A stretch of 64,000 bases of DNA from Neoalteromonas facilis (GTDB lineage: Bacteria > Pseudomonadota > Gammaproteobacteria > Enterobacterales > Alteromonadaceae). Below are positions 2,096 through 52,622 of the stretch, in pieces. The DNA lies in NCBI RefSeq assembly GCF_002807665.1, contig NZ_PEAY01000004.1:248001-312000 (forward strand), read 5' to 3'. Every line of letters starts with the position of its first letter. Positions within the stretch are counted from its first letter, which is position 1. The notes beneath the pieces are model-generated. The model was not told the DNA's origin and did no database searches. It worked only from the letters and a program-made list of their open reading frames with translations. The translations under genes and the position numbers were made by a program.

Positions 2096-3688
2096 TTGAC
2101 TTCTCAAGATCTTTCTCAATCAACACCTGCGAAATCGGGTGGTTGGTTTAATCGCTTTTTGGCCACTGTTGAGTGGTTAGGAAACTTACTTCCGCACCCC
2201 ATCACGTTATTTGCAATACTCGCATTTTCGATAGTGTTGTTGAGCGGACTTTTAGGCTTTTTTGATTACGGCGTTGCCGACCCACGTCCCTTGGACGCTG
2301 TGGGACGGGATCCAGATGGCATCATTGAAGTCATCTCACTACTAAACGCTGAAGGTTTACAGCGTATTGTTACTAACTTAGTGACTAATTTTACAGGTTT
2401 TGCGCCTTTAGGCACGGTATTGGTTGCGTTGCTGGGCGTATCGGTAGCTGAGCATTCTGGCTTGCTGTCTACTGCAATGCGTGCATTGGTCATGAATGCC
2501 TCAAAGCGCGCGGTAACGGTCACTGTGGTATTTGCCGGTATTATTTCTAATACTGCATCAGAGTTGGGTTACGTTGTCCTTATCCCTCTGGCGGCGATGA
2601 TATTCCATTCGCTTGGACGACATCCATTAGCTGGGTTGGCAGCTGCATTTGCGGGTGTATCGGGTGGTTATAGTGCCAACTTGCTATTGGGTACAGTTGA
2701 TCCGTTGCTGTCAGGTATTACCGAAGCTGCATCGCACATGCTAGATCCCCAGTACGTCGTTGGTCCTGAAGTGAACTGGTACTTTATGTTTATCAGCACA
2801 TTTGCTGTGGCATTTATGGGCGCGTTTGTTACCGAAAAGATCGTTGAACCAAGGTTGGGCAAGTATGATCCTTCAGAAGCGTCGATTGATCTGGGTGAAC
2901 AGAAAATGGACGCGCCAACCGCGCAGGAACGCAAAGCTCTGCGTTGGGCGGGTGTTTCTTTCGTTGCGCTGTGTGCCCTATTAGCATTTACCATCGTGCC
3001 TGAGAACGGCATTTTGCGTCATCCAGAAACGGGCGCTGTAGCCGGTTCTCCGTTCCTTAAAGGCATAGTGGCATTTATATTCATTACGTTTGCCGTACCG
3101 GGTTTTGTCTATGGTCGCGTGGCGGGCACCATGAAAAATGACCGAGATGTGATCAATGCGATGTCCAAGAGCATGGGTTCAATGGGTTTGTATATCACGC
3201 TAGTCTTTTTTGCCGCGCAATTCGTTGCATTCTTCAAGTGGACTAACTTGGGTACTGTATTGGCGGTTAAGGGCGCAACCTTACTGCAAACGCTAGGTCT
3301 TGATGGGCCTGAAGTATTTATATTGTTCATCATTATGTGTGGCATCGTGAACTTGTCACTTGGCAGTGCGTCGGCGCAATGGGCGGTTACGGCACCAATT
3401 TTCGTACCCATGCTTATGTTGATAGGTTTTGCCCCAGAGGTTATTCAAGCGGCCTACCGTATCGGCGATTCTGTTACTAACGTGATTTCTCCGATGATGA
3501 GTTATTTTGGTCTGATCTTGGCGATAGCTGCGCGTTACAAGAAAGATTTAGGCATGGGGACGCTGATAGCTACGATGCTGCCTTACTCCATGGTATTTAT
3601 CGTGGGTTGGACCTTGTTATTCTATATTTGGGTATTCCTGTTTGGTATGCCTGTAGGGCCGGGAGCGGCTACCTATTACAATCCCTAA
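2096..3688 (+). CDS. AbgT family transporter
   Basis: This is a 530-residue polytopic inner-membrane protein with the AbgT family layout. The N-terminal segment reads WFNRFLATVEWLGNLLPHP, followed by about a dozen hydrophobic segments and conserved stretches such as GYSANLLLGTVDPLLSGI and SPMMSYFGLILAIA. AbgT proteins move p-aminobenzoyl-glutamate inward or act as antimetabolite (sulfonamide) efflux pumps; the substrate here cannot be read from sequence. The start is TTG with GAGGA seven bases upstream; no closer ATG fits. It is a single transcription unit between two terminators, so no partner gene is implied. Confidence 0.9.
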   Translation: MTSQDLSQSTPAKSGGWFNRFLATVEWLGNLLPHPITLFAILAFSIVLLSGLLGFFDYGVADPRPLDAVGRDPDGIIEVISLLNAEGLQRIVTNLVTNFTGFAPLGTVLVALLGVSVAEHSGLLSTAMRALVMNASKRAVTVTVVFAGIISNTASELGYVVLIPLAAMIFHSLGRHPLAGLAAAFAGVSGGYSANLLLGTVDPLLSGITEAASHMLDPQYVVGPEVNWYFMFISTFAVAFMGAFVTEKIVEPRLGKYDPSEASIDLGEQKMDAPTAQERKALRWAGVSFVALCALLAFTIVPENGILRHPETGAVAGSPFLKGIVAFIFITFAVPGFVYGRVAGTMKNDRDVINAMSKSMGSMGLYITLVFFAAQFVAFFKWTNLGTVLAVKGATLLQTLGLDGPEVFILFIIMCGIVNLSLGSASAQWAVTAPIFVPMLMLIGFAPEVIQAAYRIGDSVTNVISPMMSYFGLILAIAARYKKDLGMGTLIATMLPYSMVFIVGWTLLFYIWVFLFGMPVGPGAATYYNP

Positions 3689-3729
3689 CAATTTCACATT
3701 GAGTTGCTAGGCAATTTAGGTCTAAATGA

Positions 3730-3761
3730 GGGTTAGCTGCGTATTGTGGTTAACCCTTTTT
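3730..3761 (+). terminator. Probable terminator after the AbgT transporter
   Basis: GGGTTA and TAACCC form a six-pair stem with a 15-base loop followed directly by TTTTT. The stem is short, but position and T tract fit. It ends 15 bases before the hemH start. Confidence 0.6.
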
Positions 3762-3776
3762 ACTAGATAAGACATT

Positions 3777-4856
3777 ATGAAGTATCAATCAAATACCGGA
3801 TTTACACACCGCCAATCAGATAAAATTGGTGTCTTGCTAACGAATTTAGGTACGCCCGAGGCACCTACTAAGCAAGCACTTAAACCTTACTTAAAGGAAT
3901 TTCTGTCTGATCCCCGCGTCGTAGAAGTGCCACGTTTGATTTGGTGGTTTGTGCTAAACGGTATCATTTTGAATATTCGTCCTAAACGGTCTGCCCATGC
4001 CTACAGTACGGTATGGACCGAACGTGGTTCACCGTTAATGATGCACACTGAAGATCAAGCTCAGGCGCTAAGCGAAAAATGTAAAGCAGCCTTTGGTGAA
4101 GATGTCATTGTTGATTTTGCCATGCGCTATGGACAACCGTCGATTGCTGGCACTATCGAACGCATGCAGCAGCAAGGTGTTCGTAAATTGTTGGTATTGC
4201 CTTTGTATCCACAGTACTGTGCATCCACAACGGGCTCTACGTTTGATGCCATCAGTCAGTATTTCCAGCGTACTCGCTGGATGCCAGATTTCCGCTTTGT
4301 GAGTCATTATCATGATGATGAACGTTACATCGATGCATTGGCTGAAAAAATTAAAACGCATTGGCAAACGCACCCGCGCGCAGACAAGCTTATATTCTCC
4401 TATCACGGCATTCCCAAGCGTTATTTGCTAAACGGCGATCCGTACCATTGTGAGTGTTATAAAACGTCGCGACTGATAGCAGAGAAGTTAGGCCTGAACA
4501 AAGACGACTACATGACAACGTTCCAATCGCGATTTGGTCGAGAAGAGTGGTTAAAACCGTATACCGACCATACTCTTCAAGCACTACCGTCCGAAGGAGT
4601 TAAGTCGGTTCAAGTAGTGTGCCCCGGTTTTTCAGCTGATTGTCTGGAAACAATTGAAGAAATTGGCATCGAGAATAGAGACTATTTCATCGAAGCTGGC
4701 GGGGAGCGTTATGAATATATCGCCGCCCTCAACAGTGATCCTGCACATATCGACGTATTGTTTTCGATTATTCAACGAAATTTAGCCAACTGGTCTGTAG
4801 GTGATGATTATGCGCAGCGCGAAACATTGGCAAAGCAATTAGGAGCAGAGCAATAG
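3777..4856 (+). CDS. hemH: Ferrochelatase
   Basis: This protein (359 residues) inserts Fe2+ into protoporphyrin IX, the last step of protoheme synthesis. Diagnostic parts are KIGVLLTNLGTPEAPT at the N terminus, LFVLPLYPQY-like sequence near 140, the metal-handling histidine in FSYHGIPKRY (His210), and the acidic partner in CPGFSADCLETIEEI. A short N-terminal extension of about 15 residues precedes the conserved region, common in gammaproteobacteria. The gene is separated by only two bases from the following DUF4112 gene, so the two are probably co-transcribed. Confidence 0.97.
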   Translation: MKYQSNTGFTHRQSDKIGVLLTNLGTPEAPTKQALKPYLKEFLSDPRVVEVPRLIWWFVLNGIILNIRPKRSAHAYSTVWTERGSPLMMHTEDQAQALSEKCKAAFGEDVIVDFAMRYGQPSIAGTIERMQQQGVRKLLVLPLYPQYCASTTGSTFDAISQYFQRTRWMPDFRFVSHYHDDERYIDALAEKIKTHWQTHPRADKLIFSYHGIPKRYLLNGDPYHCECYKTSRLIAEKLGLNKDDYMTTFQSRFGREEWLKPYTDHTLQALPSEGVKSVQVVCPGFSADCLETIEEIGIENRDYFIEAGGERYEYIAALNSDPAHIDVLFSIIQRNLANWSVGDDYAQRETLAKQLGAEQ

Positions 4857-4858
4857 TC

Positions 4859-5317
4859 ATGGAGCAAAAAGATATGGTCCAACGCGACGGACAGCCAGAG
4901 GACTTACTCGCACCCAAAGAGCTCAGAAAAGCGCAGGATATTGCTAATCTGCTTGATACGGCGGTTAAAATTCCGGTCATTGGCGTGCCTGTCGGTTTAG
5001 ACTTTTTGATTGGTCTTATTCCCGGTATCGGTGACGCGACTATGGTGTTAGCTGCGTTGCGCATTGTTCATTTAGGCCGAAAGCTTGGCGTACCGGAGCA
5101 TATTCAATCCAAAATGATGCGCAATGTGCTGGTTGATTTTGGCCTAGGCTTCATTCCTATCGTGGGTGACATTGCTGACATTTTCTACAAAGCTAACCGC
5201 AAAAACGTACAGCTATTAGAACGTTGGTGGATAGAGACTCATAAAAAGGATGTAGACAGCCACACTGCTAAGAAGTTAGCTGAGTGGGAAAAGAAAATGG
5301 CAGAGCTTGAGAAGTAA
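4859..5317 (+). CDS. DUF4112 domain protein
   Basis: This 152-residue protein matches the DUF4112 pattern: a core VGLDFLIGLIPGIGDATMVLAA repeated in related form as FGLGFIPIVGDIADIFYKANRKN. The two hydrophobic GIGD/VGD segments are probably membrane inserted; the ends are charged. The function of the family is not known. It starts two bases after hemH and ends 12 bases before the glutaminase gene, so the three genes look like one transcription unit, although no functional link is evident. Confidence 0.85.
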   Translation: MEQKDMVQRDGQPEDLLAPKELRKAQDIANLLDTAVKIPVIGVPVGLDFLIGLIPGIGDATMVLAALRIVHLGRKLGVPEHIQSKMMRNVLVDFGLGFIPIVGDIADIFYKANRKNVQLLERWWIETHKKDVDSHTAKKLAEWEKKMAELEK

Positions 5318-5329
5318 GTACTTACATTC

Positions 5330-6250
5330 ATGTCAATACAAGATGTCTTAATCTCAATACACGACGATATTAAAGCCAACATCGCTGCCTATGAAGGTGC
5401 TGTAGCCAATTACATTCCGGCATTGTCTACGGCGCCAAGTGATGGATTCGCCATGGCCGTATGTGACATGGCCGGCAATCATTATGCCGTGGGTGATATC
5501 GGCCATCGTTTTACCATTCAGTCGATCTCCAAAATCATGACGTTAACACTGGCGCTACAGCGATACGGTGATGATTTGTGGCAGCGAGTCGGCAAAGAGC
5601 CGTCCGGCACTGCGTTTAATTCGCTAACGCAGTTGGAATTTGAGCAAGGTGTGCCGCGCAATCCGTTTATTAATGCGGGCGCAATTGTTACCTGCGATGC
5701 GCTTTACTCACGTTTATCCGCGCCAACGCATCATATGCTTGAGACCCTACGCGAGCTATCGGGCAATCCCCGATTGATTATCAATAACGAAGTGGCTCGC
5801 AGTGAGTATGAGCACCGTTATCGCAATGCAGCAATGGCTTACCTAATGAAGTCATTTGGTAATTTCGAGAACGCTGTGGATGATGTGTTAAAGACGTATT
5901 TTTCCATATGCGCCATCGAAATGAACACACAAGAACTGGCGCAAGCGTTCAGTTTTCTGGCGAATAAAGGGCGTTCAGTCCACGACCAAGGGATCATCAT
6001 TTCGGCCAAGCAAAACTCCCAACTTAACTCGTTGCTATTCACTAGCGGCTTATACGATGCAACAGGCGATTTTGCCTATCGTGTCGGTATGCCGGGTAAG
6101 TCGGGAGTTGGAGGCGCTATTGTTGCGTTTGTGCCTCATCAGTTCAGTATTGCGGTGTGGTCACCGAAACTGAATAAGTATGGTAATTCCTCTGCAGGTT
6201 TGCATGCACTGGAAATGTTTGCAGATCGCATGGCTTTGCAGTTGTTTTAG
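5330..6250 (+). CDS. glsA: Glutaminase (serine-dependent, GlsA/B family)
   Basis: At 306 residues this is the usual size for bacterial glutaminase, which hydrolyses glutamine to glutamate and ammonia with a beta-lactamase-like serine fold. The SxxK motif is in FTIQSISKIM (Ser65, Lys68). Other family blocks are GTAFNSLTQLE, RNPFINAGAIV, YRNAAMAYLMKSFGN and GMPGKSGVGGAIVAF. The protein has no signal peptide, so it is cytoplasmic. It lies 12 bases behind the DUF4112 gene. It may serve nitrogen metabolism or acid tolerance; the sequence does not tell which. Confidence 0.95.
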   Translation: MSIQDVLISIHDDIKANIAAYEGAVANYIPALSTAPSDGFAMAVCDMAGNHYAVGDIGHRFTIQSISKIMTLTLALQRYGDDLWQRVGKEPSGTAFNSLTQLEFEQGVPRNPFINAGAIVTCDALYSRLSAPTHHMLETLRELSGNPRLIINNEVARSEYEHRYRNAAMAYLMKSFGNFENAVDDVLKTYFSICAIEMNTQELAQAFSFLANKGRSVHDQGIIISAKQNSQLNSLLFTSGLYDATGDFAYRVGMPGKSGVGGAIVAFVPHQFSIAVWSPKLNKYGNSSAGLHALEMFADRMALQLF

Positions 6251-6547
6251 TGCTGGAGCGTTGCCCTTAGGGAAGAGTGTCTTGCCGAAATATTCGTATA
6301 CCGAATACCGAGACTAAGAATAAGCACGAAACTTAGAAAGCGGCTAAATAATTATAGCCTTGAGGCACACATCGGAGATTTTGACGCTTAACTCTAAAGA
6401 AGCGGGCCCTTTTCTTAACTGAAAGGAGTTTTCTTGGATTCTCGGCCGATGGGTTGCTGCTCTATGGGTCACAACGCCTTACAATTTTTACATCAGTTTC
6501 TGAATGTTCTAAAGTAACTAGGAAGTCATTTGTTTAAGGGAATACTT
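6251..6547. other. Intergenic stretch before the cysteine-rich block
   Basis: No gene of convincing length or ribosome binding site was seen on either strand. AAGAAGCGGGCCCTTTTCTT at about 6399-6418 is a short inverted sequence with no loop and no clear terminator form. The composition becomes AT-rich towards the next gene, so the stretch probably contains its promoter and the edge of the accessory block. Confidence 0.4.
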
Positions 6548-8470
6548 ATGCTCCATAGCACAGGCAAGTCAGGGTTGGCTTCAACTACTTTATTAGTTTC
6601 TGCATTGTTTCTATTTAACTCGCTCCTTTCTTTTTCCGCTTTTTCTAACGACCTCTCTGAGCGCTATATGCAAGGAGATGTTATTTCAAAGGATAAAGCT
6701 GTAGATCTGATGAGAGATCTCGTTAGTCAATGTTCGGATTCGGTGAATGAAGCGGTTTGTCTTAGAACGTGTAAGCACGCAATTGGGGCATTTTCGAATC
6801 GGTTCGACGAAATGCTAGCTAACCCAAGGCCACTTACTCGAGAGCAGCTTGCAGATGACACTATGTACTGTACTGGTCTCTTTCAAAATGCACAAGTTCA
6901 ACCTGAGTCCTTTCTAGCATTAATTCAACTTCAAGAAGCCATAAAGCAGGGAGAAGCTATTGCGCCAACTCAAGAAAAGGGAAATAAAAAATCGAGCTCA
7001 AGCGGTCTCGCTAAAACAAGTACTGCGTCACTTGCGATAGAAAGCTTCCCAACAGAAGGTCTTTTTCATAAGTCCGAATTTGCAGCTCTATACCTTGGAG
7101 ATGAGGAAAGCGTAGATTTGCGCGGAGAAGCAAGCCCAATTTTAACAAGCATGGTCGAAACTTATATCAAGAAGTACTCAAACACCTGTTACGACCACCT
7201 ACCCGATAACGCTATCCAGATAGAGAGCCAAATGTGCGTTGAAAATCGAGAATATAAAATCAATGGCGTGCAAGTAGGCCCCACATACTGTAATCGCACT
7301 GAATCTGGTGGGACAGGCATTTTTACAACGCCAAGAATGCTAGAGGCATTTAACACCGTTAAAAGAAACTCTGCGATGGCACCTAAATCAAATTCAGTTG
7401 AAGATGTATTTAGAAGTATATCGGGTAGAGCAAAAATTGGTAACACTCCAATGCATGTGGCCTTAACAGAGTCTCTAGTTAGTTTTGCCAATATGGAACA
7501 AGATATGAACGTACTGTTTTCTGGACTGGCCTGCGACGCTCCGAGTTTACAATTGTTTGAAGACAACCTGTACGCATATGTTGTAGGGAATAAACTTAAA
7601 CAACATCACAAACTTAAAACTCTTTCAGAGGCTCGCGCTTTTGAGCAAGTTACTTATAAACCGCATGAATTGGACATAAAGACATTAATGGATGATGTGA
7701 TAAGTGATCATTCAATTGGTTGGCTGTTTAATCGGTATGTCAAAGGCAGTATCAACAACCTTAACGCATCAACAGGAAATGATGGAAACGTATATAGAGT
7801 AACAGCTGACTTCAAAACCAGCAGTTCCTTTAATCAAGTCGGTATCAGCCAAGGGACCGCTGAAAATAGTGCGATGTTGATGCTCAATAGCGAAGGACTG
7901 GGTTGTATACGTTTACAAGACAACTTTGATCGTTGTGGATTAATTAGCAGAAAAGTTATTACTGATTTTGAAGAAGGTCTATATAAGCTTGAGGCAGAGG
8001 ATCCAAACAAGGGGAGTAATTCGATAAATCACGAAATTGGCGCTATAACAGTTTGTAATGAAAGTAACGAGGAAATACGCGTTTCTTTGCTGTCTAACAT
8101 ACCCAATAGATTAAAATACATCAGGAATAAATCTATAAAATCAGGTAATTGTGAAGTTGTAAATAAAACCTCCACGGGCGATTGGGCAATGATGCGTTTG
8201 GAACTGCAAAGAAATGGTCAGTGGAGTACGCCAAATTTCCGGAAACCTGGTCTTAAATGGCCGAATGTTATTGGCCCAATGCTTGAGGAGATGTGCGTGT
8301 CGCAAGATGCTTCTCAGCTTGATCGCTGCAATAATGGAACGATTTCGGAGGGAATATTTAATTTCAGAATTAAATATTCATCGGAAGATTATGTTTCCAT
8401 TCTTATTGATGAAAATGAAATCAGAACGCAATCCGCAAACTTTAGTAGCCAGTCTGCTTTTGAGCTATGA
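6548..8470 (+). CDS. Large secreted cysteine-rich protein, unknown function
   Basis: I do not recognise a described family. The chosen ATG has AAGGGA seven bases upstream and opens directly into a signal peptide (MLHSTGKSGLASTTLLVSAL... ending near SFSAFSN). A TTG at 6530 would add six residues. The mature protein of about 600 residues has an N-terminal four-cysteine segment (C-x8-C-x3-C, then C after about 33 residues), a Ser/Lys-rich linker, and a block with LPDNAIQI and GGTGIF framed by three cysteines. A long C-terminal part has further cysteines. The first two regions recur in the minus-strand protein at 10068-11462. AGA and ATA codons are frequent and the gene is AT-richer by eye than glsA, suggesting acquisition. 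Confidence 0.75.
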   Translation: MLHSTGKSGLASTTLLVSALFLFNSLLSFSAFSNDLSERYMQGDVISKDKAVDLMRDLVSQCSDSVNEAVCLRTCKHAIGAFSNRFDEMLANPRPLTREQLADDTMYCTGLFQNAQVQPESFLALIQLQEAIKQGEAIAPTQEKGNKKSSSSGLAKTSTASLAIESFPTEGLFHKSEFAALYLGDEESVDLRGEASPILTSMVETYIKKYSNTCYDHLPDNAIQIESQMCVENREYKINGVQVGPTYCNRTESGGTGIFTTPRMLEAFNTVKRNSAMAPKSNSVEDVFRSISGRAKIGNTPMHVALTESLVSFANMEQDMNVLFSGLACDAPSLQLFEDNLYAYVVGNKLKQHHKLKTLSEARAFEQVTYKPHELDIKTLMDDVISDHSIGWLFNRYVKGSINNLNASTGNDGNVYRVTADFKTSSSFNQVGISQGTAENSAMLMLNSEGLGCIRLQDNFDRCGLISRKVITDFEEGLYKLEAEDPNKGSNSINHEIGAITVCNESNEEIRVSLLSNIPNRLKYIRNKSIKSGNCEVVNKTSTGDWAMMRLELQRNGQWSTPNFRKPGLKWPNVIGPMLEEMCVSQDASQLDRCNNGTISEGIFNFRIKYSSEDYVSILIDENEIRTQSANFSSQSAFEL

Positions 8471-8588
8471 GTATCTTATAGGCGCATTAGATGCGGTGTA
8501 ATGTTAATAAAGACGAAGCATTTAAGGTATGTATATGTGGATTCAGAAAGTGCGGGAAAAATACACATATAGACTAAGGCGTTAAATA

Positions 8589-9617
8589 TTGCCTGACAAT
8601 GACGTGAACGAAATGCAAACCTACAGAATTATCTTAAGAATAACGTCGACAGTTTCAATTGAGACAGATGAAACAATTGAAACGCTGCCTGGCCGCCAAG
8701 GTGAAGAAATTGGCAAAGGTGAGTTTAGTTATTTCTTGAAGCGTGAAGCGGTTTCAGGGGCAGATGATAAGTTGGCTTCATCGCGTTACTTCAGTGATCA
8801 CCTCTATCTCAGCGATTATAAACGAGTAATGTCTAAGCTTAGGAAGCTTAAAGTGCGGCATAAACGCTGTCCAAGTTGCAATGGCGCGGGCAAAGGTCGA
8901 TGTGATAGTTGTGGTGGTACTGGCAAAAAAGCATGCCCGACCTGCGACGGGACCGCTGAATATAAAGCTTCATATACGGTAGGTGCATCCGAAAACAAGA
9001 AGGTAACATGTAGTGTCTGTAATGGTTCTGGATACGAGTACGTATATGCTGCTGAGGGAAGTGGAACCTATAGAAGTTGCCCAGCATGTTCAGGTGTTGG
9101 TCACAGCATCACATCAGGACATTCAGGAAGGACCACGCATATGAATTCCAGTTGTAGCGAATGCAGAGGCAAGGGGGTCGTTCAATGTAATAAATGCAGG
9201 AATGGTAAAGTCGGTATTTGTGGCGTATGTGAAGGTAAAAAAGACATAACAGAGATATTTAGTCTGGCTCAGCATGTTCGTTCAGTGAAAAAGGCGGACT
9301 TGTCTAAACCGTTTGGCCGTTACACACAATCAGTACTGGAGACTTTATCTAAACGTCCTGATCTTGTGTCTAATAGTGAAGTCATACGCAAAGGCCGTGT
9401 ATTTGTGGTTATTACAGATTTCGAATTAGATGTTCGCCCAGCCTTATCAGAAATAAACAGTAAAGATAGCGGTGAGTTGGATGAATGGTCAATTCAAGAT
9501 ATTAATAGCGGTTTAATATGGAGAAAACCCCCAACTTTTTTAGAGAAGATTGCGGGCTTGTTTGGCTTTTCACCAACGCCACCGTTTGAGAAAGCTAAAA
9601 AAATGGTCAAGCACTAA
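8589..9617 (+). CDS. Protein with duplicated DnaJ-type zinc-finger region, no J domain
   Basis: The protein has 342 residues. Residues 94-214 contain eight CxxC pairs, most in the CxxCxGxG form of the DnaJ cysteine-rich domain (CPSCNGAG, CDSCGGTG, CPTCDGTA, CSVCNGSG, CPACSGVG, CSECRGKG, CNKCRNGK, CGVCEGKK). DnaJ itself has four, binding two zincs, so up to four zincs are expected. No J domain with HPD and no signal peptide is present; the N-terminal 90 residues look beta-rich and the C-terminal part is unassigned. The likely start is TTG with AAGG about nine bases upstream; an ATG at 8613 is an alternative. It follows the secreted protein by 118 bases and overlaps the convergent gene by four bases. 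Confidence 0.8.
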   Translation: MPDNDVNEMQTYRIILRITSTVSIETDETIETLPGRQGEEIGKGEFSYFLKREAVSGADDKLASSRYFSDHLYLSDYKRVMSKLRKLKVRHKRCPSCNGAGKGRCDSCGGTGKKACPTCDGTAEYKASYTVGASENKKVTCSVCNGSGYEYVYAAEGSGTYRSCPACSGVGHSITSGHSGRTTHMNSSCSECRGKGVVQCNKCRNGKVGICGVCEGKKDITEIFSLAQHVRSVKKADLSKPFGRYTQSVLETLSKRPDLVSNSEVIRKGRVFVVITDFELDVRPALSEINSKDSGELDEWSIQDINSGLIWRKPPTFLEKIAGLFGFSPTPPFEKAKKMVKH

Positions 9618-9982
9618 ACCGATTTGAATGGCTCTTCATCGGATTCAGAAAGTATTTTGTATGGATCTTCTTCTAGAGCCTTTGCTGCCGAGCGATAGAC
9701 ATCTGCATTTTCATTTAGGGTAGAGAGTAAGTGCGTTTGTTGCGTTGCAAAATTATCCAAAAAGTCAGCCGCTACGTTTAACAATGAGATTGCAGCGGAA
9801 ATTGCCGGAACGCCTTCAAAATCACTCTCAGGATCCTTACTAAGGGTACGAGCGAGCCTTGCATATATCAACATATTTTCAGCCATCTGTGGCATGATAG
9901 CTTCATTTTGTTCACCAATATCTTTAGTGAGCTTTGCCATTCCGATCAATAGATTAGACGCCACATCAATCACTGTAATCAT
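9614..9982 (-). CDS. Small helical protein, unknown function
   Basis: This 122-residue protein is rich in Ala, Leu, Glu and Asp and is predicted by eye to be nearly all helical, with heptad-like spacing in the middle (MPQMAENMLIYARLARTLS) and an acidic C terminus. It has no signal peptide, cysteine or membrane segment. It ends four bases inside the stop of the convergent zinc-finger gene and lies 85 bases downstream of the secreted paralog on the same strand, so it is probably transcribed with that gene. No family was recognised. Confidence 0.65.
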   Translation of the reverse strand: MITVIDVASNLLIGMAKLTKDIGEQNEAIMPQMAENMLIYARLARTLSKDPESDFEGVPAISAAISLLNVAADFLDNFATQQTHLLSTLNENADVYRSAAKALEEDPYKILSESDEEPFKSV

Positions 9983-10067
9983 GTTATTCCAGAAAGCTTA
10001 CAACGCAATAAGAAAGCTTTTTTCTTCCCGATACATTTATCCACTGATATTGCTCATTTAACCTAAG

Positions 10068-11462
10068 TTAACCTCCGCCACGTAAAATATCTAGCAGAGC
10101 CTGCTGTTTTTGCAGAGGGTCTTTTATCGAATCTAAATAAACAATATTCGCATAGTTTGGCAGCGCTTGTTTCATGTAAGACATTAGCTTTTCTTTGGCA
10201 ATTACCATTGAATCACAGCCGTATGTAGTTATTAGTTTTTTATAGTCGGCCTCATAGGCATCATTGATGTCTGTGCTTTTCAGAGCAAGGTCGACTGTAC
10301 CACTGGCAGCAGATAGCATCATCTGCCGGGCTTTTTGTTCAAGAGCGATGTCATATCCCCAGTAAATCAGGGGATCGGCGTATATACCTGTACCCACATT
10401 GTGATAGCTGGTGCATCGAGTATATGACCCGTACATATTGCTTGTCGTCGTTTCAATTGCACACCCGGCACGGGTATTTATTTCAATTTTGTTTTCAGGC
10501 AAGGATGCTGGACAGTTTCTTGATACGCTTTGAATGTAACCTGCAAGATGTGCATATAGCTCGCCTTTTAGAACCCCTTTTTGTTGTCTGTTACCATTAA
10601 AAAGGGCGTCAAGCTGTCGCCCACGTTTCATTTGTGCGAAATCTATATTGACCTGTCCAGAAAATGGAACTGTCTTAGAGCTTCCGGAAGGTGGGCTGAC
10701 AGGCTCTTTAGCAATGTCGCTTTGTGGTGGTTCGACGACTTCAGAATTAGGCTTTGACGGCCAAGAGCTATCCTTTAAATGGTTCAATGCGGATTTCAAT
10801 GATTCATAGACTTCAAATTCTTGACCCTGCGTCAATCCATCATTTGCGAAATAAGTACTACAGCCGTTGTAGTAATAACCATGTTTTAATTTGCGAACTA
10901 TTCTAGCATCTGAATTTTCATCGCTGAAACTAGCTACATCATCGGAAAATTTTTTCGCCTCCTCAACACAGGTTCTTTGACACAGTTCTCTCGAACTAGC
11001 ATGCAACATGTCGCAATATTCTGGCAGTACAGTGAACAACTCATTTACCTTGCGTATATTTACGCCACCATCTGCGTCTAGAAAATTGAGATCTACCTCG
11101 GTGAATGTCTTATTTTTCTGTTTTGCAGATTGAGATGATGGAGCTGTTGGAGGTCGAAACTGTAGTTCGGTTGATTCTGACATAAGTTTCACGGCTTGAG
11201 GGTTCATCATATCTTTCGGGCTGCTCATCATTGCCAGGTAACAGTTCTTTTGTGCGTCAATGATTTTGTCCACATTCCCAAACACGTCATCAAGATTAGC
11301 AACCCTACTGGCAGCGTTGCTGCATACCGTCTGGCAATTCGAATTGCTGCACTTATCAGCCGTATCATTGAGTAGCGCAGAGTAATATTCAATCGTTTTT
11401 TCTTGAGCAGTAGCGGTGAAGTGAAAAGTAACGAACGAGATTAAAACGATGGCCCTTAACAT
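10068..11462 (-). CDS. Secreted cysteine-rich protein, paralog of the 6548-8470 product
   Basis: The ATG at 11462 is chosen because AAGGGAA lies upstream of it and it opens into a signal peptide (MLRAIVLISFVTFHFTATAQ). An upstream ATG at 11567 would add 35 residues unlike an export signal. The 464-residue product has two four-cysteine segments (Cys 38, 43, 47, 74 and Cys 150, 161, 165, 201), each with a Cx3C core. After a Pro/Ser-rich linker comes a block with LPENKIEI and VGTGIY and three cysteines (about residues 309-361). The block matches the plus-strand paralog, including seven residues from the third Cys to GTG. Both ribosome binding sites share AAGGGAA. Function is unknown; export to the periplasm is inferred. 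Confidence 0.75.
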   Translation of the reverse strand: MLRAIVLISFVTFHFTATAQEKTIEYYSALLNDTADKCSNSNCQTVCSNAASRVANLDDVFGNVDKIIDAQKNCYLAMMSSPKDMMNPQAVKLMSESTELQFRPPTAPSSQSAKQKNKTFTEVDLNFLDADGGVNIRKVNELFTVLPEYCDMLHASSRELCQRTCVEEAKKFSDDVASFSDENSDARIVRKLKHGYYYNGCSTYFANDGLTQGQEFEVYESLKSALNHLKDSSWPSKPNSEVVEPPQSDIAKEPVSPPSGSSKTVPFSGQVNIDFAQMKRGRQLDALFNGNRQQKGVLKGELYAHLAGYIQSVSRNCPASLPENKIEINTRAGCAIETTTSNMYGSYTRCTSYHNVGTGIYADPLIYWGYDIALEQKARQMMLSAASGTVDLALKSTDINDAYEADYKKLITTYGCDSMVIAKEKLMSYMKQALPNYANIVYLDSIKDPLQKQQALLDILRGGG

Positions 11463-11669
11463 TCCGAAATTCCCTTTTGGTTTGCTGAATAGATAAGTAA
11501 TCAGTATAGAAAGAACTATACGTCTATGCCACTTGTCACTTAAAGAACTCTTTAGATGCGCTTTCATCCCACATCATCACGCGGATAAGCGCGATTTATA
11601 TTGCGCAATAGCAATAAAAAACGCTCGTTTTGATCAAATAACTGCTAGTTTTATAGCACTTAGCATATG

Positions 11670-11699
11670 AAGCCTGTCACATGAAATTGGCAGGCTTTT
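11670..11699 (+). promoter_or_regulatory. Terminator-like hairpin in the leader of the acetolactate synthase-like gene
   Basis: AAGCCTGTC and GGCAGGCTT pair over nine positions (one G-T) around a ten-base loop and are followed by TTT, ending 16 bases before the start codon. The divergent gene on the other side cannot use it as a terminator, so it may attenuate the downstream operon. A perfect palindrome TATTGCGCAATA lies at 11599-11610 and could be an operator. Confidence 0.45.
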
Positions 11700-11715
11700 C
11701 AGTCAGGGTAGGCAG

Positions 11716-13356
11716 ATGAAAGCATCCGATTTATTTGTGAAAGCACTTGAAGCCGAAGGCGTAGAGTATGTATTTGGCATACCGGGAGAAGAAAATCTCG
11801 ATTTACTTGAGTCTTTGCGCCACTCATCGATAAAACTGATTTTAACCCGTCATGAACAGGGCGCTGGTTTTATGGCCGCCACATATGGTCGACTTACCGG
11901 CAAAGTAGGAGTGTGTTTATCTACGCTTGGGCCGGGTGCCACCAATTTAGTGACGCCAGCGGCCTATGCTCAACTCGGTGCGATGCCGATGCTGATGATC
12001 ACCGGTCAGAAGCCCATCAAAACCAGTAAGCAGGGGCGATTCCAAGTGATCGATGTGGTCGACATGATGCGCCCAATCACCAAGTACACTACACAAGTTG
12101 TCAGTGGTGACCGCATTCCATCAGTGGTGCGCGAAGCATTCCGTTTGGCGCATGAAGAACGGCCTGGTGCGGTACATATTGAGCTACCAGAAGATATTGC
12201 AGCGGAGCCGACCAAAGCGGCGTTGATTAAGCCCAGCGTTTCCAGACGTCCTATTGCTGAATATAAAGCGATCAATCGAGCGGTAGAAATGATTGAAGCC
12301 GCGACCTCACCAGTATTGATGATTGGCGCTGGCGCAAACCGTAAATTAACCTCAAAAATGTTGCGTGAATTTGTCAGTAAGACCGGTATCCCGTTCATTA
12401 CTACGCAAATGGGTAAAGGGGTTATTGATGAAACCGATCCTCTTTTCATGGGCAATACCGCTTTGTCCGATGGCGACTTTGTGCACCGCGTGATCAACCG
12501 TGCTGATCTCATCATTAACGTAGGCCATGACGTGGTAGAAAAGCCTCCGTTTTTTATGCACGAAGATGGCAAGCAAGTGATCCATATCAACTTCGACTCT
12601 GCCGCCGTCGACCCTGTGTATTTCCCACAGTTAGAGGTGGTGGGTGACATAGCCAACAGCATTTGGCAAATCAACGAGAGAATTGCGCCGCAGAGCAGTT
12701 GGAAGTTGGACTTTTACCGAGATGTTCATGACGCGTATGTGAGCCATCGACAAGACAGTGAAAAAGATGAACGCTTCCCTATTTTACCTGAGCGCTTTGT
12801 CAAAATTGTCCGTGAAGCCATGCCCAAAGATGGCATTGTGACGCTCGACAATGGCGTATACAAAATATGGTTTGCACGTAATTACCCTGCCTATTTCCCG
12901 AATACGCTATTGCTAGATAACGCACTGGCAACGATGGGGGCAGGGCTGCCATCAGCTATGGCCGCTAAAATGGTTCATCCAGACAAACCTGTCATCACCG
13001 TATGTGGCGATGGCGGTTTTATGATGAACAGTCAGGAATTAGAAACGGCTGTGCGCCTGAATTTGCATATTGTGGTGCTGATATTACGCGACGATGCCTA
13101 TGGCATGATCAAGTGGAAACAAGCCCACATGAACTTTGATAATTACGGGTTGGATTATGGCAATCCAGACTTCGTTAAATACGTTGAAGCCTATGGTGGA
13201 AAAGGCTGGCGTATATCTTCTTCTGATGAATTAGGCCCATTACTGACTCGCTGCTTGAGTGAGCCTGCGGTGCATTTAATTGATGTACCTGTCGATTACA
13301 GCCTAAACGATCAAACCTTGAATAAAACAATTAAAGAACTGAGCCGGGAATTATAA
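11716..13356 (+). CDS. Acetolactate synthase large subunit-like thiamine diphosphate enzyme
   Basis: This 546-residue enzyme has the three thiamine diphosphate-enzyme domains in order. The N-terminal pyrimidine-binding domain includes the catalytic Glu in RHEQGAGFMAA. The central domain is about residues 190-330. The C-terminal domain holds the diphosphate/Mg motif GDGGFMMNSQELETAV. It resembles catabolic, small-subunit-independent acetolactate synthases, which join two pyruvates and release CO2; no ilvN-like gene follows. It lies nine bases before an aldehyde dehydrogenase, so an aldehyde-producing carboligase or decarboxylase is also possible. The start ATG is well placed behind AGGGTAGGC. 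Confidence 0.82.
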   Translation: MKASDLFVKALEAEGVEYVFGIPGEENLDLLESLRHSSIKLILTRHEQGAGFMAATYGRLTGKVGVCLSTLGPGATNLVTPAAYAQLGAMPMLMITGQKPIKTSKQGRFQVIDVVDMMRPITKYTTQVVSGDRIPSVVREAFRLAHEERPGAVHIELPEDIAAEPTKAALIKPSVSRRPIAEYKAINRAVEMIEAATSPVLMIGAGANRKLTSKMLREFVSKTGIPFITTQMGKGVIDETDPLFMGNTALSDGDFVHRVINRADLIINVGHDVVEKPPFFMHEDGKQVIHINFDSAAVDPVYFPQLEVVGDIANSIWQINERIAPQSSWKLDFYRDVHDAYVSHRQDSEKDERFPILPERFVKIVREAMPKDGIVTLDNGVYKIWFARNYPAYFPNTLLLDNALATMGAGLPSAMAAKMVHPDKPVITVCGDGGFMMNSQELETAVRLNLHIVVLILRDDAYGMIKWKQAHMNFDNYGLDYGNPDFVKYVEAYGGKGWRISSSDELGPLLTRCLSEPAVHLIDVPVDYSLNDQTLNKTIKELSREL

Positions 13357-13365
13357 GGAGTCATT

Positions 13366-14805
13366 ATGTCCAGTCTACAATCGGCCTATCCCTATTACTT
13401 AGCCAGCAAACCCGTGTTTGCTAATGAAGACTTGAAAGTCACCAATAAATATACCGGAGAGGTCGCCACAACGGTCGCAATGGCTGATGCTTCTGTGATT
13501 GATCAAGCGATAGCGGCAGCTGAGCAAGCCCAGCCCGCCATGACCGCTATGCGTCCGTATGAGCGTCAAAAAGTATTGGAGCATTGCATCAAACGCTTCA
13601 CTGAACGATTTGAAGAGCTTGCCTATGCGCTGTGCATCGAAGCTGGCAAACCGATCAAAGATGCGCGTGGCGAAGTCACGCGCTTAATCGATACGTTTCG
13701 TATTGCCGCGGAAGAATCTGTGCGCATCAATGGGGAGGTTATGAACCTTGAAATTACAGAACGCGCAAAGGGTTACACCGGTATGTATAAACACGTGCCG
13801 ATTGGCCCGTGTTCTTTTATTTCACCGTTTAACTTTCCGCTCAATTTGGCGGCTCACAAAGTCGCTCCGGCGATAGCAGCGGGCTGTACTTTTGTATTAA
13901 AGCCTGCGTCTCGTACGCCACTGGGCGCCATCATAATGGGAGAAGTACTGGCTGAAACCAGCTTGCCTGAAGGCGCATTTTCAATTCTGCCTTGTTCCCG
14001 TGACGGTGCTGATTTATTCACGACGGATGACCGTTTCAAATTACTCAGTTTCACGGGCTCTCCTGATGTGGGTTGGGATCTGAAAGCTAGAGCGGGTAAA
14101 AAGCCGGTTATTTTAGAGTTGGGCGGCAATGCAGCATGTATTGTGGATGAAGATGCAGACCTTACCGATGCCATTGAGCGCATAGTGTTTGGTGCCTATT
14201 ACCAATCAGGGCAAAGCTGTATCAGTGTGCAACGTATATTAGTACATGACAGTATTTACGAGTCGTTTAAACAGCGCTATGTCGAAAAAGTTGCCAACTT
14301 GGTACACGGCGACCCCTTGGATGAAACCACCTTTATCGGCCCCATGATTGCAGAATCTGAAGCCAAGCGTTTGGAAGATTGGATCTCTGAAGCGGTTGAC
14401 GGTGGAGCTACCTTGTTGTGTGGCGGAAAGCGTGAGGGAGCAATGCTGCAAGCCACGGTTTTGGAGAATGCGCCTCATGCGTCTAAGGTCAATGCGGAAG
14501 AAGCCTTTGGCCCAGTGTCTATCATCAGTTCATTCAGTGATTACGATGAAGCGCTTGAGCGCGTAAATGATAGTCAGTTTGGTTTACAAGCCGGTGTATT
14601 CACTCGTGATATTTACAAAGCACAAAAAGCTTGGGATGAATTGCATGTTGGTGGTGTCGTGATTGGCGATGTACCGAGCTGGCGTGTGGATAACATGCCC
14701 TATGGTGGCGTTAAAGAGTCTGGATTGGGTAGGGAAGGGATCCGCTACGCCATTGCTGATATGACTGAAATACGCTTGATGGTGATCAGAAACCCCAATC
14801 CTTGA
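13366..14805 (+). CDS. NAD(P)-dependent aldehyde dehydrogenase
   Basis: The 479-residue length and motifs fit the ALDH superfamily. FISPFNFPLNLAAHKVAPA is the cofactor-binding stretch, ILELGGNAACIVDEDAD carries the general base Glu, and YYQSGQSCISVQRI carries the catalytic Cys. The C-terminal PYGGVKESGLGREG is also typical. It resembles the lactaldehyde or non-phosphorylating glyceraldehyde-3-phosphate dehydrogenase branch, but the substrate cannot be fixed. It follows the thiamine diphosphate enzyme by nine bases with AAGGAG as ribosome binding site, so the two act together, probably oxidising an aldehyde linked to that enzyme. Confidence 0.9.
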   Translation: MSSLQSAYPYYLASKPVFANEDLKVTNKYTGEVATTVAMADASVIDQAIAAAEQAQPAMTAMRPYERQKVLEHCIKRFTERFEELAYALCIEAGKPIKDARGEVTRLIDTFRIAAEESVRINGEVMNLEITERAKGYTGMYKHVPIGPCSFISPFNFPLNLAAHKVAPAIAAGCTFVLKPASRTPLGAIIMGEVLAETSLPEGAFSILPCSRDGADLFTTDDRFKLLSFTGSPDVGWDLKARAGKKPVILELGGNAACIVDEDADLTDAIERIVFGAYYQSGQSCISVQRILVHDSIYESFKQRYVEKVANLVHGDPLDETTFIGPMIAESEAKRLEDWISEAVDGGATLLCGGKREGAMLQATVLENAPHASKVNAEEAFGPVSIISSFSDYDEALERVNDSQFGLQAGVFTRDIYKAQKAWDELHVGGVVIGDVPSWRVDNMPYGGVKESGLGREGIRYAIADMTEIRLMVIRNPNP

Positions 14806-14844
14806 TACGTGTACCTTGCGCGTGGCGAATCAGGCTGCGCGCAG

Positions 14845-15306
14845 TTATGCCGCAACGTAAGTAAGATAAGCCAGAACCGCATAGCGGGTGGTTTTCCCCA
14901 AGGCCACTAACACAACAAACCAGCCAAAGCGTATGCGTAACATGCCCGCTACAACGGTGATGGGGTCGCCGATAATCGGCACCCATGCAAAGCAAAGCGC
15001 CACCAAACCGTATTTATCGAAACGATGGCGCGCCTTTTGAAGGTCGGCATCTGTCATCCGTAACCACTTGTGCGCAACGGCATCACTGGCCCAAAGGCCA
15101 ATACCGTAATTGATCACAGAGCCTAGTACATTGCCAATCGACGCAACAATTATAACGTTGGCATAGCCAAACCCATTGACCAATAAACTCACAAACACAG
15201 CTTCGCTACCAAACGGTAGCAGCGTGGCGGCTAGTAATGCGGTTAAAAATAAGCCGAGCAATCCCATTTGGGAAAGTTGCTCGGCTAATTCAATAAATAC
15301 AGGCAT
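14845..15306 (-). CDS. YqaA family membrane protein (VTT/DedA-like)
   Basis: This 153-residue protein has four or five hydrophobic segments. It carries the VTT-domain features LLPFGSEAVFVSLL, ASIGNVLGSVINYGIG, and FAWVPIIGDPITVVAGMLRI with its conserved Pro and Gly-Asp-Pro. Members of this superfamily sit in the inner membrane and some translocate phospholipids or undecaprenyl phosphate; YqaA itself has no settled role. It is convergent with the aldehyde dehydrogenase and lies 28 bases downstream of the VOC gene on the same strand. Confidence 0.85.
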   Translation of the reverse strand: MPVFIELAEQLSQMGLLGLFLTALLAATLLPFGSEAVFVSLLVNGFGYANVIIVASIGNVLGSVINYGIGLWASDAVAHKWLRMTDADLQKARHRFDKYGLVALCFAWVPIIGDPITVVAGMLRIRFGWFVVLVALGKTTRYAVLAYLTYVAA

Positions 15307-15334
15307 ACTGAGGCAAAGACCTCAAGAGAGCGCG

Positions 15335-15715
15335 TTATTTTGGACGATGCAATGCACAGACCTTATTGCCAGAGGGGTCGCGTAAGTACGCAAGGTATAG
15401 TTTCATCGTCGCTCCTTCACGCATTCCTGGTGGATCTTCACAGTCTGTTCCACCGTTTTTAAGACCGGCTGCATGCCAAGCATCAACCGCTTCTGGAGTG
15501 GTGGCCGCAAACCCGATGGTCATGCCGTTGCCATGACATGCAGGCTCACCGTTAAGTGGTTTGGTAAGCGCTAATACGCCCTTCTCGGTCATGTAAAAAC
15601 AGCGACCTTTTTCATCAATGACGCCAGGTTTAATACCTAGCTCACCCAAAATCGCATCATAAAACGCTTTAGATGCCTCTATATCGTTTGCACCTAACAT
15701 AATATGACTAAACAT
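15335..15715 (-). CDS. VOC family (glyoxalase/bleomycin-resistance fold) protein
   Basis: The protein has 126 residues and the start MFSHIMLGANDIEASKAFYDAILGELG, typical of the vicinal-oxygen-chelate fold with its first metal His at position 4. The later parts GFAATTPEAVDAWHAAGLKNGG and YLAYLRDPSGNKVCALH fit the second beta-alpha-beta-beta-beta module. It is a cytoplasmic single-subunit protein, likely dimeric; the reaction is not deducible. CAGGAGAAACACC before the ATG is a strong ribosome binding site. Related proteins are commonly annotated only as VOC family. Confidence 0.85.
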   Translation of the reverse strand: MFSHIMLGANDIEASKAFYDAILGELGIKPGVIDEKGRCFYMTEKGVLALTKPLNGEPACHGNGMTIGFAATTPEAVDAWHAAGLKNGGTDCEDPPGMREGATMKLYLAYLRDPSGNKVCALHRPK

Positions 15716-50656: not shown

Positions 50657-51568
50657 TTACGAGCGCCAACGCTTGGTTAGGTCTTCGTAAGCGTCTATAC
50701 GACGGTCTCTAAAGTACGGCCAAATACGTTTCACTGACTCGGTGCGTGTCATGTCGATTTCCACCATTAAAGTTTCTTCCTTATCCGCACTGGCATGAGC
50801 GAGGATTTCACCTTGTGGCCCGGCGATAAAGCTTTGCCCCCAAAATTCAATGCCATCTGTGTTATCGCCTGGGACTGCATCTGGTGAGGGCTCAAACCCT
50901 GTTCTGTTGGCAACAACAACGGGGACAGAGTTCGCTACAGCATGCGCGCGTTGTATAGTGTGCCACGCATCGTGTTGACGTAATTGCTCGGCTTTGTCGT
51001 CGTTTAAATCCCAGCCGATCGCGGTGGGGTAAAACAATATGTCGGCCCCAGCCATGCTCATCAAACGGGCTGCTTCTGGATACCACTGATCCCAGCAGAC
51101 AAGCACCCCAAGTTTACCAACCGATGTTTCAATCGGGTTGAAGCCTAAATCACCGGGCGTAAAGTAGAATTTCTCGTAGAAGCCTGGGTCGTCAGGGATA
51201 TGCATTTTTCGATACGTACCGGCAATGTCGGCGCTACGGTCAAATACAACCGCTGTGTTGTGATACAAGCCTGAGGCACGCTTTTCAAACAACGACGTAA
51301 CCAGAACGATATTGAGTTCATCTGCAAGCGCACCAAAAAACGCTGTTGCATCACCAGGGATAGGCTCTGCTAAATCAAAGGCATTTACGTCTTCGTTTTG
51401 GCAGAAATACAGCGTGCTGTGTAATTCCTGAAGCAATACGAGCTCACAACCCTTTGTTGCTAATTCGCGTACCCTGTCAGCACTTTTGTTCCAGTTAACG
51501 CTTTTATCATTACTTTCTACGGCTTGCTGCACAAGCCCAACGGTTAAACGTGCTGGTTTAGCTGACAT
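50657..51568 (-). CDS. aguB: N-carbamoylputrescine amidase
   Basis: The 303-residue nitrilase-family enzyme has the Glu-Lys-Cys triad: Glu48 in VLLQELHSTLYFCQ, Lys in YRKMHIPDDPGFYEKFYF, and Cys in LGVLVCWDQWYPEAARLM. FYEKFYFTPGD is characteristic of AguB, which hydrolyses N-carbamoylputrescine to putrescine, CO2 and ammonia. AAGGAG lies inside the end of aguA before its ATG; the genes overlap by 11 bases. Together they convert agmatine to putrescine. Confidence 0.95.
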   Translation of the reverse strand: MSAKPARLTVGLVQQAVESNDKSVNWNKSADRVRELATKGCELVLLQELHSTLYFCQNEDVNAFDLAEPIPGDATAFFGALADELNIVLVTSLFEKRASGLYHNTAVVFDRSADIAGTYRKMHIPDDPGFYEKFYFTPGDLGFNPIETSVGKLGVLVCWDQWYPEAARLMSMAGADILFYPTAIGWDLNDDKAEQLRQHDAWHTIQRAHAVANSVPVVVANRTGFEPSPDAVPGDNTDGIEFWGQSFIAGPQGEILAHASADKEETLMVEIDMTRTESVKRIWPYFRDRRIDAYEDLTKRWRS

Positions 51569-52622
51569 ATTCAGTGACTCCTTGAGTAAGCTGGTGTTGG
51601 ATTTCAGGCTTCAGTGTATCAACAGGCACTTGCATCGTAATACAATGTAAACTTCCATACTGTTGAACTAACGGGTAGCAATTCACGGGCACTACGGTAA
51701 AGGCTGGATAGGCTTGTTGAATGGCCGAGATTGCTTGCTCATCTTCCGCTTGGCCATATACAGGGCATAACACTGAATCATTGCAAATGAGATAGTTCGC
51801 ATATGAGGCGGGTAGTCTGTCGTTGTCTTCATTGAAGATCGCGGGTAACGGCAACTCAAACACATCGTGAGACGGAAAAGCTTGTTTGCATTCATCGACC
51901 AAATTAGACAAACCTTCATAATGACCATCGTCTGGACGATTGTGGCAACTTTGGATAACCAGTCCGCTATCTGGGGTATAACGCACTAATGTATCAATAT
52001 GTCCGTCTGTATCGTCGCCTTCCAAGTGTCCGTGCCTAAGAATAGTGGTTTGTGAACTTCCCAATATACGTGCAAATTCTGTACTGTATTGTGACGATGT
52101 CATCGCACCGTTTCGCTCCGGATTTGACAAGCACAATAATGTTGAAAGTAGATGGCCGTTTTGGTCAATTTCTAATGCACCGCCTTCACACACGACTGAA
52201 CTTGTTTTGATTTGGTGTTTACACAGTGCACTCAAATAGCGTTGATTAACCTCATTGTCACGTTGTGCATTAAACTTGTTACCCCAACCGTTGAATTGAA
52301 ATTCAACCGGCACACGTTTATTACCTTCGGCGACGGTTAAGAATGCATAGTCTCTTACCCATGTATCATTGTAGCGCGCGTCTAATAGTAATACATGCGC
52401 ACCGGCCAACGTCTCGCGAATGGCCGGTTTATCTTGCTCACGACATAGTAAAATAACACCTGCGCCAGCAGCATTAATCGCTTTGACTAGATCAGTATAG
52501 GTATTCACTACATCAGATAACCACGGTGCCCAATCTGTATTTTCATTGGGCCACGCGAGTATCACAGCTTCACATGGGGTCCATTCAGGAAGTAATGTTG
52601 CAGTCACGAACTTTGTATTCAC
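51558..52622 (-). CDS. aguA: Agmatine deiminase
   Basis: The 354-residue protein belongs to the peptidyl-arginine deiminase-like family. It has WTPCEAVILAWPNENTDWA near the N terminus, VCEGGALEIDQNGHLLST, the His in HLEGDDTDGHIDT and the catalytic Cys in YGSLHCITMQVP. It converts agmatine to N-carbamoylputrescine. The start is GTG with a poor ribosome binding site. It is the first gene of the aguA-aguB unit, 31 bases downstream of folM on the same strand. Confidence 0.94.
   Translation of the reverse strand: MNTKFVTATLLPEWTPCEAVILAWPNENTDWAPWLSDVVNTYTDLVKAINAAGAGVILLCREQDKPAIRETLAGAHVLLLDARYNDTWVRDYAFLTVAEGNKRVPVEFQFNGWGNKFNAQRDNEVNQRYLSALCKHQIKTSSVVCEGGALEIDQNGHLLSTLLCLSNPERNGAMTSSQYSTEFARILGSSQTTILRHGHLEGDDTDGHIDTLVRYTPDSGLVIQSCHNRPDDGHYEGLSNLVDECKQAFPSHDVFELPLPAIFNEDNDRLPASYANYLICNDSVLCPVYGQAEDEQAISAIQQAYPAFTVVPVNCYPLVQQYGSLHCITMQVPVDTLKPEIQHQLTQGVTEYVS

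Follow-up and report, generated by a model that had tools for sequence, protein, structure and literature searches.

A rare cysteine-rich module in two predicted exported proteins of an orphan four-gene block at a variable site in Neoalteromonas facilis

Introduction

The zinc region of DnaJ has two zinc sites, one formed by motifs 1 and 4 and the other by motifs 2 and 3. BSD2 and ZnJ2 have a CXXCXGXG cysteine-rich region of this kind without a J-domain match; ZnJ2, an algal zinc protein that resembles DnaJ but lacks the J-domain, is reported to hold unfolded chains and to bind free thiols, and it does not form disulfides (PMC5818400). A protein of the same type, gB, is encoded in a block of about 5 kb within a 64,000-nucleotide stretch of the Neoalteromonas facilis genome (contig NZ_PEAY01000004.1, positions 248,001 to 312,000, forward strand; this whole stretch is called the window). 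Together with the small gene gC, gB lies between the genes of two cysteine-rich proteins, gA and gD, which are predicted to be exported and which both contain a rare, unnamed cysteine module. The relatives of gA and gD outside this species are lone envelope proteins that share with gA the module, its four invariant cysteines and its second part; they differ from the block in having no gB or gC neighbour and no CxxxC segments, and two of them are compact.

A preliminary description had read the block as a mobile functional unit, possibly with thiol or disulfide chemistry in the periplasm. The open reading frame (ORF) listing agreed with the positions and orientations that it gave for four genes. 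These orphan genes form two convergent pairs, gA-gB and gD-gC, and have the following features (aa, amino acids):

6548–8470, plus strand: gA, predicted exported cysteine-rich protein, 640 aa, 14 Cys (from ORF, cysteines and hydrophobic N-terminus)
6731–6871, plus strand: four-cysteine segment of gA with CxxxC, C62 to C108; helical in a low-confidence model
7025–7987, plus strand: shared module of gA; first part C214, C230, C248 and C329, second part with Cys pair 453/463
8589–9617, plus strand: gB, DnaJ-type zinc-finger protein, 342 aa (PF00684, E 4.2e-8, above cutoff)
8868–9230, plus strand: eight CxxC motifs of gB, palindromic spacing 11, 11, 25, 23, 25, 11, 11
9614–9982, minus strand: gC, orphan protein, 122 aa, no Cys
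10068–11462, minus strand: gD, predicted exported cysteine-rich protein, 464 aa, 12 Cys (from ORF, cysteines and hydrophobic N-terminus)
10161–10622, minus strand: shared module of gD, first part only (C317, C334, C350 and C416), profile match 3.1e-19
10860–11015, minus strand: second four-cysteine segment of gD, C150 to C201
11241–11351, minus strand: first four-cysteine segment of gD, C38 to C74
6250–11715, no strand: interval in place of the 208-bp spacer of a congener (G002, L015 4983–5190); insertion edges approximate

The start codon of gB is TTG, with the ATG at 8616 as a possible alternative; gD was taken from the ATG at 11462, while the ORF list begins at the upstream ATG, 11567. At their stops, gB and gC overlap by 4 bases.

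Cysteine module common to gA and gD

The module is real and occurs in two copies in the block. A profile built from five outside relatives matched gA at 8.5e-42 and gD at 3.1e-19, far above the shuffled sequences (best score 0.1 in 1,000 shuffles, 500 each of gA and gD), and both proteins therefore belong to the module family. Four cysteines (C214, C230, C248 and C329 in gA) were invariant in 7/7 aligned sequences. The block of three cysteines seen earlier, with LP-x-N and GTGI[FY], is a genuine homologous module with a fourth invariant cysteine in addition; the spacing between the third cysteine and GTG, previously given as seven residues, is six in both gA and gD. In gA and the five relatives the module continues into a second part, which contains a further cysteine pair (C453 and C463 in gA); gD ends before that region and lacks it. 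Beyond the signal or lipobox region, all five outside relatives had exactly six cysteines, the four plus one pair.

BLASTP aligned gA with gD at E 1e-4 (23% identity). The identity of gA was 21% to gD and 25–27% to three lone relatives, and the phylogenetic tree left the placement of gA and gD loose (support 41/18), with long branches meeting. The two genes had been called paralogous, which is right as to homology and, by identity, not as to nearest kinship; on the BLASTP and tree results, a recent duplication was rejected. The AAGGGAA ribosome binding site was confirmed before both genes, 5 nucleotides from the gA ATG and 7 nucleotides from the gD ATG; a purine-rich site of this kind is weak evidence.

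Distribution of the module

Relatives of gA were present in 3/294 other genomes of the family. Scanning of the genome_contigs collection gave five module loci from 137 pattern matches, a lower bound because the scan used two short motifs and one confirming query. The loci belong to Neptunicella marina (L022), Gayadomonas joobiniege (L023), Marisediminitalea aggregata (L024), Marinomonas aquiplantarum (L025), and Ningiella ruwaisensis (L026); L022, L023 and L026 are the first-found gA relatives (genomes G092, G076 and G218, respectively), in agreement with tblastn. Profile A2 matched 2/393 other genomes of the order (G076 and G092) and module profile A6 matched 0/283 other genomes of the class, the genome draws for these searches overlapping. 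In the draw of relatives, gA and gD were each absent from 58/58 other genomes, including three congeners, and neither had relatives in the plasmids collection, the phages collection or the viral contigs.

Database searches of gA, gC, and gD returned nothing in Pfam, NCBIfam, and PADLOC at E up to 1. The best PHROGs matches were 0.12 for gA and 0.025 for gC, with none for gD, and 2.5e-4 and 0.016 for the zinc region of gB. No PDB sequence matched gA or gD at E up to 1, and the module profile had one PDB match (E 0.16). For gA and gD, no known family was found in Pfam, NCBIfam, PADLOC, PHROGs, or PDB sequences.

Three weak matches were taken as chance: that of gA in G073 (E 0.006), with two stops in 58 residues; that of A2 in G468 (E 5.4e-4), with three stops in 61 positions; and that of gC in G141 (E 7.8e-4, 54 residues), within an ORF behind an oxidoreductase-like gene (named by eye). 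The last was the one match of gC in 245 other genomes.

L022 and L024 are the compact relatives. In L023, L025 and L026 about 425 aa of unassigned sequence follow a lipobox-like start (by eye) and precede the module, and these regions were alike among the three (E 1e-15 to 3e-34, 22–25% identity); Pfam gave sub-cutoff matches for L026 and none for L023 and L025. The record with the module gene of L023 (10001–10897) is 769,523 bases long and bears the title plasmid pG7, the sole hint of a mobile replicon for the family. A literature search on Marisediminitalea and islands found nothing relevant among the papers listed, which is not to say that the module and gB are missing from the literature.

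Gene neighbourhood of the module

By tblastn, gB was absent (E up to 1) from all five module loci, and gC appeared only at E 0.95; four loci cover about 10 kb on each side, L025 spans 8,963 bases only, and three loci are present twice in the tblastn set. No relative of gB was found in the five module-carrying genomes (G076, G092, G218, and those behind L024 and L025), a match in G092 (E 0.059) being taken as chance owing to four stops inside it. There was also no gB relative at E 1e-10 among 245 other genomes of the family or at E 1e-5 among 368 other genomes of the class; three uncultured phage records in the phages collection matched the zinc region of gB at E 2e-6 to 1e-2.

The functional unit proposed earlier is not supported: 5/5 outside loci carry the module without gB or gC, and their five genomes show no relative of gB. 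Homologs occurring mainly as lone genes, with neighbours not conserved, had been named beforehand as the outcome that would speak against it, and this is what was found. A conserved four-gene system was rejected on these grounds; that the four genes form one unit, with gB serving gA and gD, is possible and unsupported by co-occurrence.

Export signals and cysteine segments

A hydrophobic segment of the signal-peptide type opens both gA and gD, in line with their earlier prediction as exported proteins; no segment of gB or gC passed the same threshold. Every cysteine of the two proteins (14 in gA and 12 in gD) lies C-terminal to the hydrophobic segment. The cysteine positions also agreed with the Cx3C-centred four-cysteine segment reported once in gA (C62, C71, C75, and C108) and twice in gD (C38/43/47/74 and C150/161/165/201). 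The same pattern, whose gap ranges were chosen after the sequences were seen, appeared in 71/5,000 shuffled sequences of gA and 78/5,000 of gD, so a single occurrence is not strong. The segment of gA was modelled as helical with low confidence, and no such segment was present in the five outside relatives.

Two results speak against the periplasmic disulfide or thiol chemistry suggested for the block: the cysteine positions contain no CxxC in gA or gD, and neither protein has a thioredoxin-type match in Pfam, NCBIfam or PDB sequences.

Zinc protein gB

gB matched the DnaJ_CXXCXGXG zinc region with 33.8 bits (PF00684, cutoff 32.7). Pfam gave it no J-domain match at E up to 1, and NCBIfam DnaJ_bact scored 18 bits against 377.2. 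The cysteine-rich domain of BSD2 (14.1 against 27 bits, E 0.055) and Anti-TRAP (RtpA; 19.9 against 32 bits in Pfam and 16.3 against 65 in NCBIfam) were below cutoff. The best PDB sequence match was 7zhs (DnaJ homolog subfamily A member 2), covering gB 134–232 (E 5.3e-5), and the N- and C-terminal parts outside the zinc region matched nothing. The DnaJ of the same genome (L036) has four CxxC at spacings 17, 22, and 14 and a J-domain (by eye), and gB matches it at E 0.18. gB may resemble SSUH2-type proteins, and no literature linking DnaJ, a cysteine-rich domain and SSUH2 was found.

All 16 cysteines of gB lie in CxxC motifs, eight in number as counted earlier, and the spacings between them form an exact palindrome; ZnJ2 has four CXXCXGXG motifs (PMC5818400). 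The earlier term, a duplicated zinc finger, is doubtful. A tandem duplication accounts for the palindromic spacing no better than one elongated hairpin does, and with nested pairing of the motifs such a hairpin would carry four zinc sites.

Structure prediction

The compact relative L024 was modelled well (predicted local distance difference test, pLDDT, 79.8; predicted template modelling score, pTM, 0.69) from an alignment with six other rows, four of them cut to the module and one (L022) itself compact. In the model, a helix, a long beta hairpin and helices are followed by a helix and five strands, and two of the invariant cysteines are placed in the two strands of the hairpin. The strand part aligned to NTF2, Tim44 and monellin-like chains with Z scores of 5 to 6.3, and the same region of gA aligned to cystatin-like and other chains (Z up to 5.4). 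NTF2/cystatin-like domains (PDB 3ub1 and 3qk9) have a similar arrangement to this second part (Z up to 6.3, 74 residues, root-mean-square deviation 2.8), but differ by low Z and, for 3ub1, 8% identity; the fold is a common one, and family membership is not implied. Such Z values fall within the range of common arrangements.

The top Foldseek rows for L024, UFC1 at E 0.16 and weaker, belong to a different fold and were not counted as relatives. With the gA model the best fold-search match was E 0.066, and in the viral fold library there was none below E 0.001. The fold-search rows barely covered the module's first part, so no new fold is claimed for it.

Genomic site and composition

On the left, the block is flanked by a glutaminase gene (PF04960) ending at 6250, and on the right by an acetolactate-synthase-like gene (named by eye from the sequence) starting at 11716. 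Comparison with the congener G002 showed a spacer of 208 bp opposite 5,466 bp of the window; the flanks aligned (window 3001–6249 to L015 1738–4982, and window 11716–15715 to L015 5191–9193), and the 208-bp spacer had only a weak alignment, at the right end of the interval. In G003, DUF4112-like and synthase-like genes lie about 2.4 kb apart with other short ORFs between them, and a glutaminase gene is located downstream. No glutaminase gene was found in G001, where other ORFs stand upstream of the synthase-like gene. Since G002, G003, G001 and the window each differ there, site occupancy differs in 4/4 species. Gain of the block is likelier than three losses. Of the earlier word mobile, an insertion-like state at a variable site is retained, and mobility itself is indirect, through the site and the plasmid record of L023.

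By eye, the G003 site (L034 7340–9760) includes a RelE/ParE-like ORF (L034 9203–9466), and the G001 site (L033 5910–9000) encodes substrate-binding-like and histidine-kinase-like proteins.

No tRNA was found within the window, and repeats within 6240–11760 were short and chance-like, with no flanking repeats of note. Pfam gave no recombinase match among the four genes, three of which match nothing. The promoter and terminator scan was uninformative (8 promoters where 12.3 were expected, and 5 terminators where 4.4 were expected), and the Rfam scan gave nothing useful. In all, 15 window proteins were scanned against Pfam; one of them, far from the block (51558–52622, minus strand), is a peptidyl-arginine deiminase family protein (PF04371, E 2.3e-91).

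The GC content of the block genes was 0.405–0.431, and that of their third codon positions (GC3) was 0.349–0.391. For the 41 other long window ORFs the values were 0.461 ± 0.019 and 0.452 ± 0.032, and the range of the block was reached by 2/41 in GC and 1/41 in GC3. The block is AT-rich, as had been stated; the codon-use comparison proposed with that statement found nothing unusual, 12 to 24 of the 41 window ORFs scoring below the block genes.

Discussion

The best explanation of the whole, to which a probability of roughly 0.4 is given, is that four orphan genes, restricted to the species, occupy a variable chromosomal site and that two of them encode disulfide-held envelope proteins, perhaps with gB as a holding protein. 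gA and gD would be exported to the envelope, where the four module cysteines would pair into disulfides and lock a unit of helix, beta hairpin and helix, and gA would additionally carry an NTF2/cystatin-like sheet. The two may serve as binding or structural envelope proteins and not as thiol enzymes. Cytoplasmic gB, with no J-domain match, would be a zinc-held holding protein, and its most economical role would be to keep cysteine-rich precursors reduced and unfolded until export. No role is assignable to gC. This explanation is supported by the module homology, the invariant cysteines, the even cysteine counts (14 and 12), the L024 model, the site comparison, the low GC3, and the ZnJ2 precedent.

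Several results weigh against it. The gA model, built with seven sequences, was poor (mean pLDDT 50.0). Der p 7, colicin M immunity protein, DCAF15, and PBP2a lie within about 1–2 Z of the best row, and with unrelated rows so close, the NTF2/cystatin reading is weak. The block does not look foreign in its codon use, and its loss from three congeners is conceivable. Moreover, the module does not need gB, since no gB occurs beside it in the five loci or in their genomes. The last result agrees with another explanation, rated as equally probable, by which four functionally unrelated orphans gathered at a hypervariable site, two divergent module members being acquired or kept there and gB being irrelevant to them. 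The absence of gC beside the module, the other genes carried by congeners at the site, and a tree that does not group gA and gD as sisters point the same way. It is hard, however, to bring two members of so rare a family within 5 kb by chance, when gA has relatives in 3/294 family genomes and the module profile in 0/283 class genomes.

The variable site and the convergent pairs of orphan genes, as well as the RelE/ParE-like ORF of G003 (by eye, not scanned), would suit a competition or defence cassette of exported cysteine-rich effectors or receptors with intracellular partners. This is improbable, because PADLOC had no match for gA, gC, and gD and for gB a best of only E 0.25, gA and gD are without relatives in the phages and plasmids collections, and fold searches gave nothing below E 0.001. 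An equally improbable role for gA and gD is that of periplasmic oxidoreductases or metal carriers. Their many cysteines and CxxxC segments invite it, but beside the lack of CxxC and of thioredoxin-type matches (Pfam, NCBIfam, PDB sequences), the module's four cysteines resemble those of structural disulfides in being invariant and set far apart. A self-contained mobile export cassette, in which a four-site hairpin of gB would keep gA and gD reduced and unfolded until secretion, is unlikely too, if slightly less so than these two.

At present the block mostly exemplifies how a variable site can be occupied by orphan genes. Should gB act on gA and gD, it would be a cytoplasmic holder dedicated to secretory proteins rich in disulfides. 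The mirror-image layout of its eight CxxC could extend the two-site hairpin of DnaJ to four sites. What has been brought to light is a rare cysteine module, thinly scattered over Alteromonadaceae and Marinomonas.

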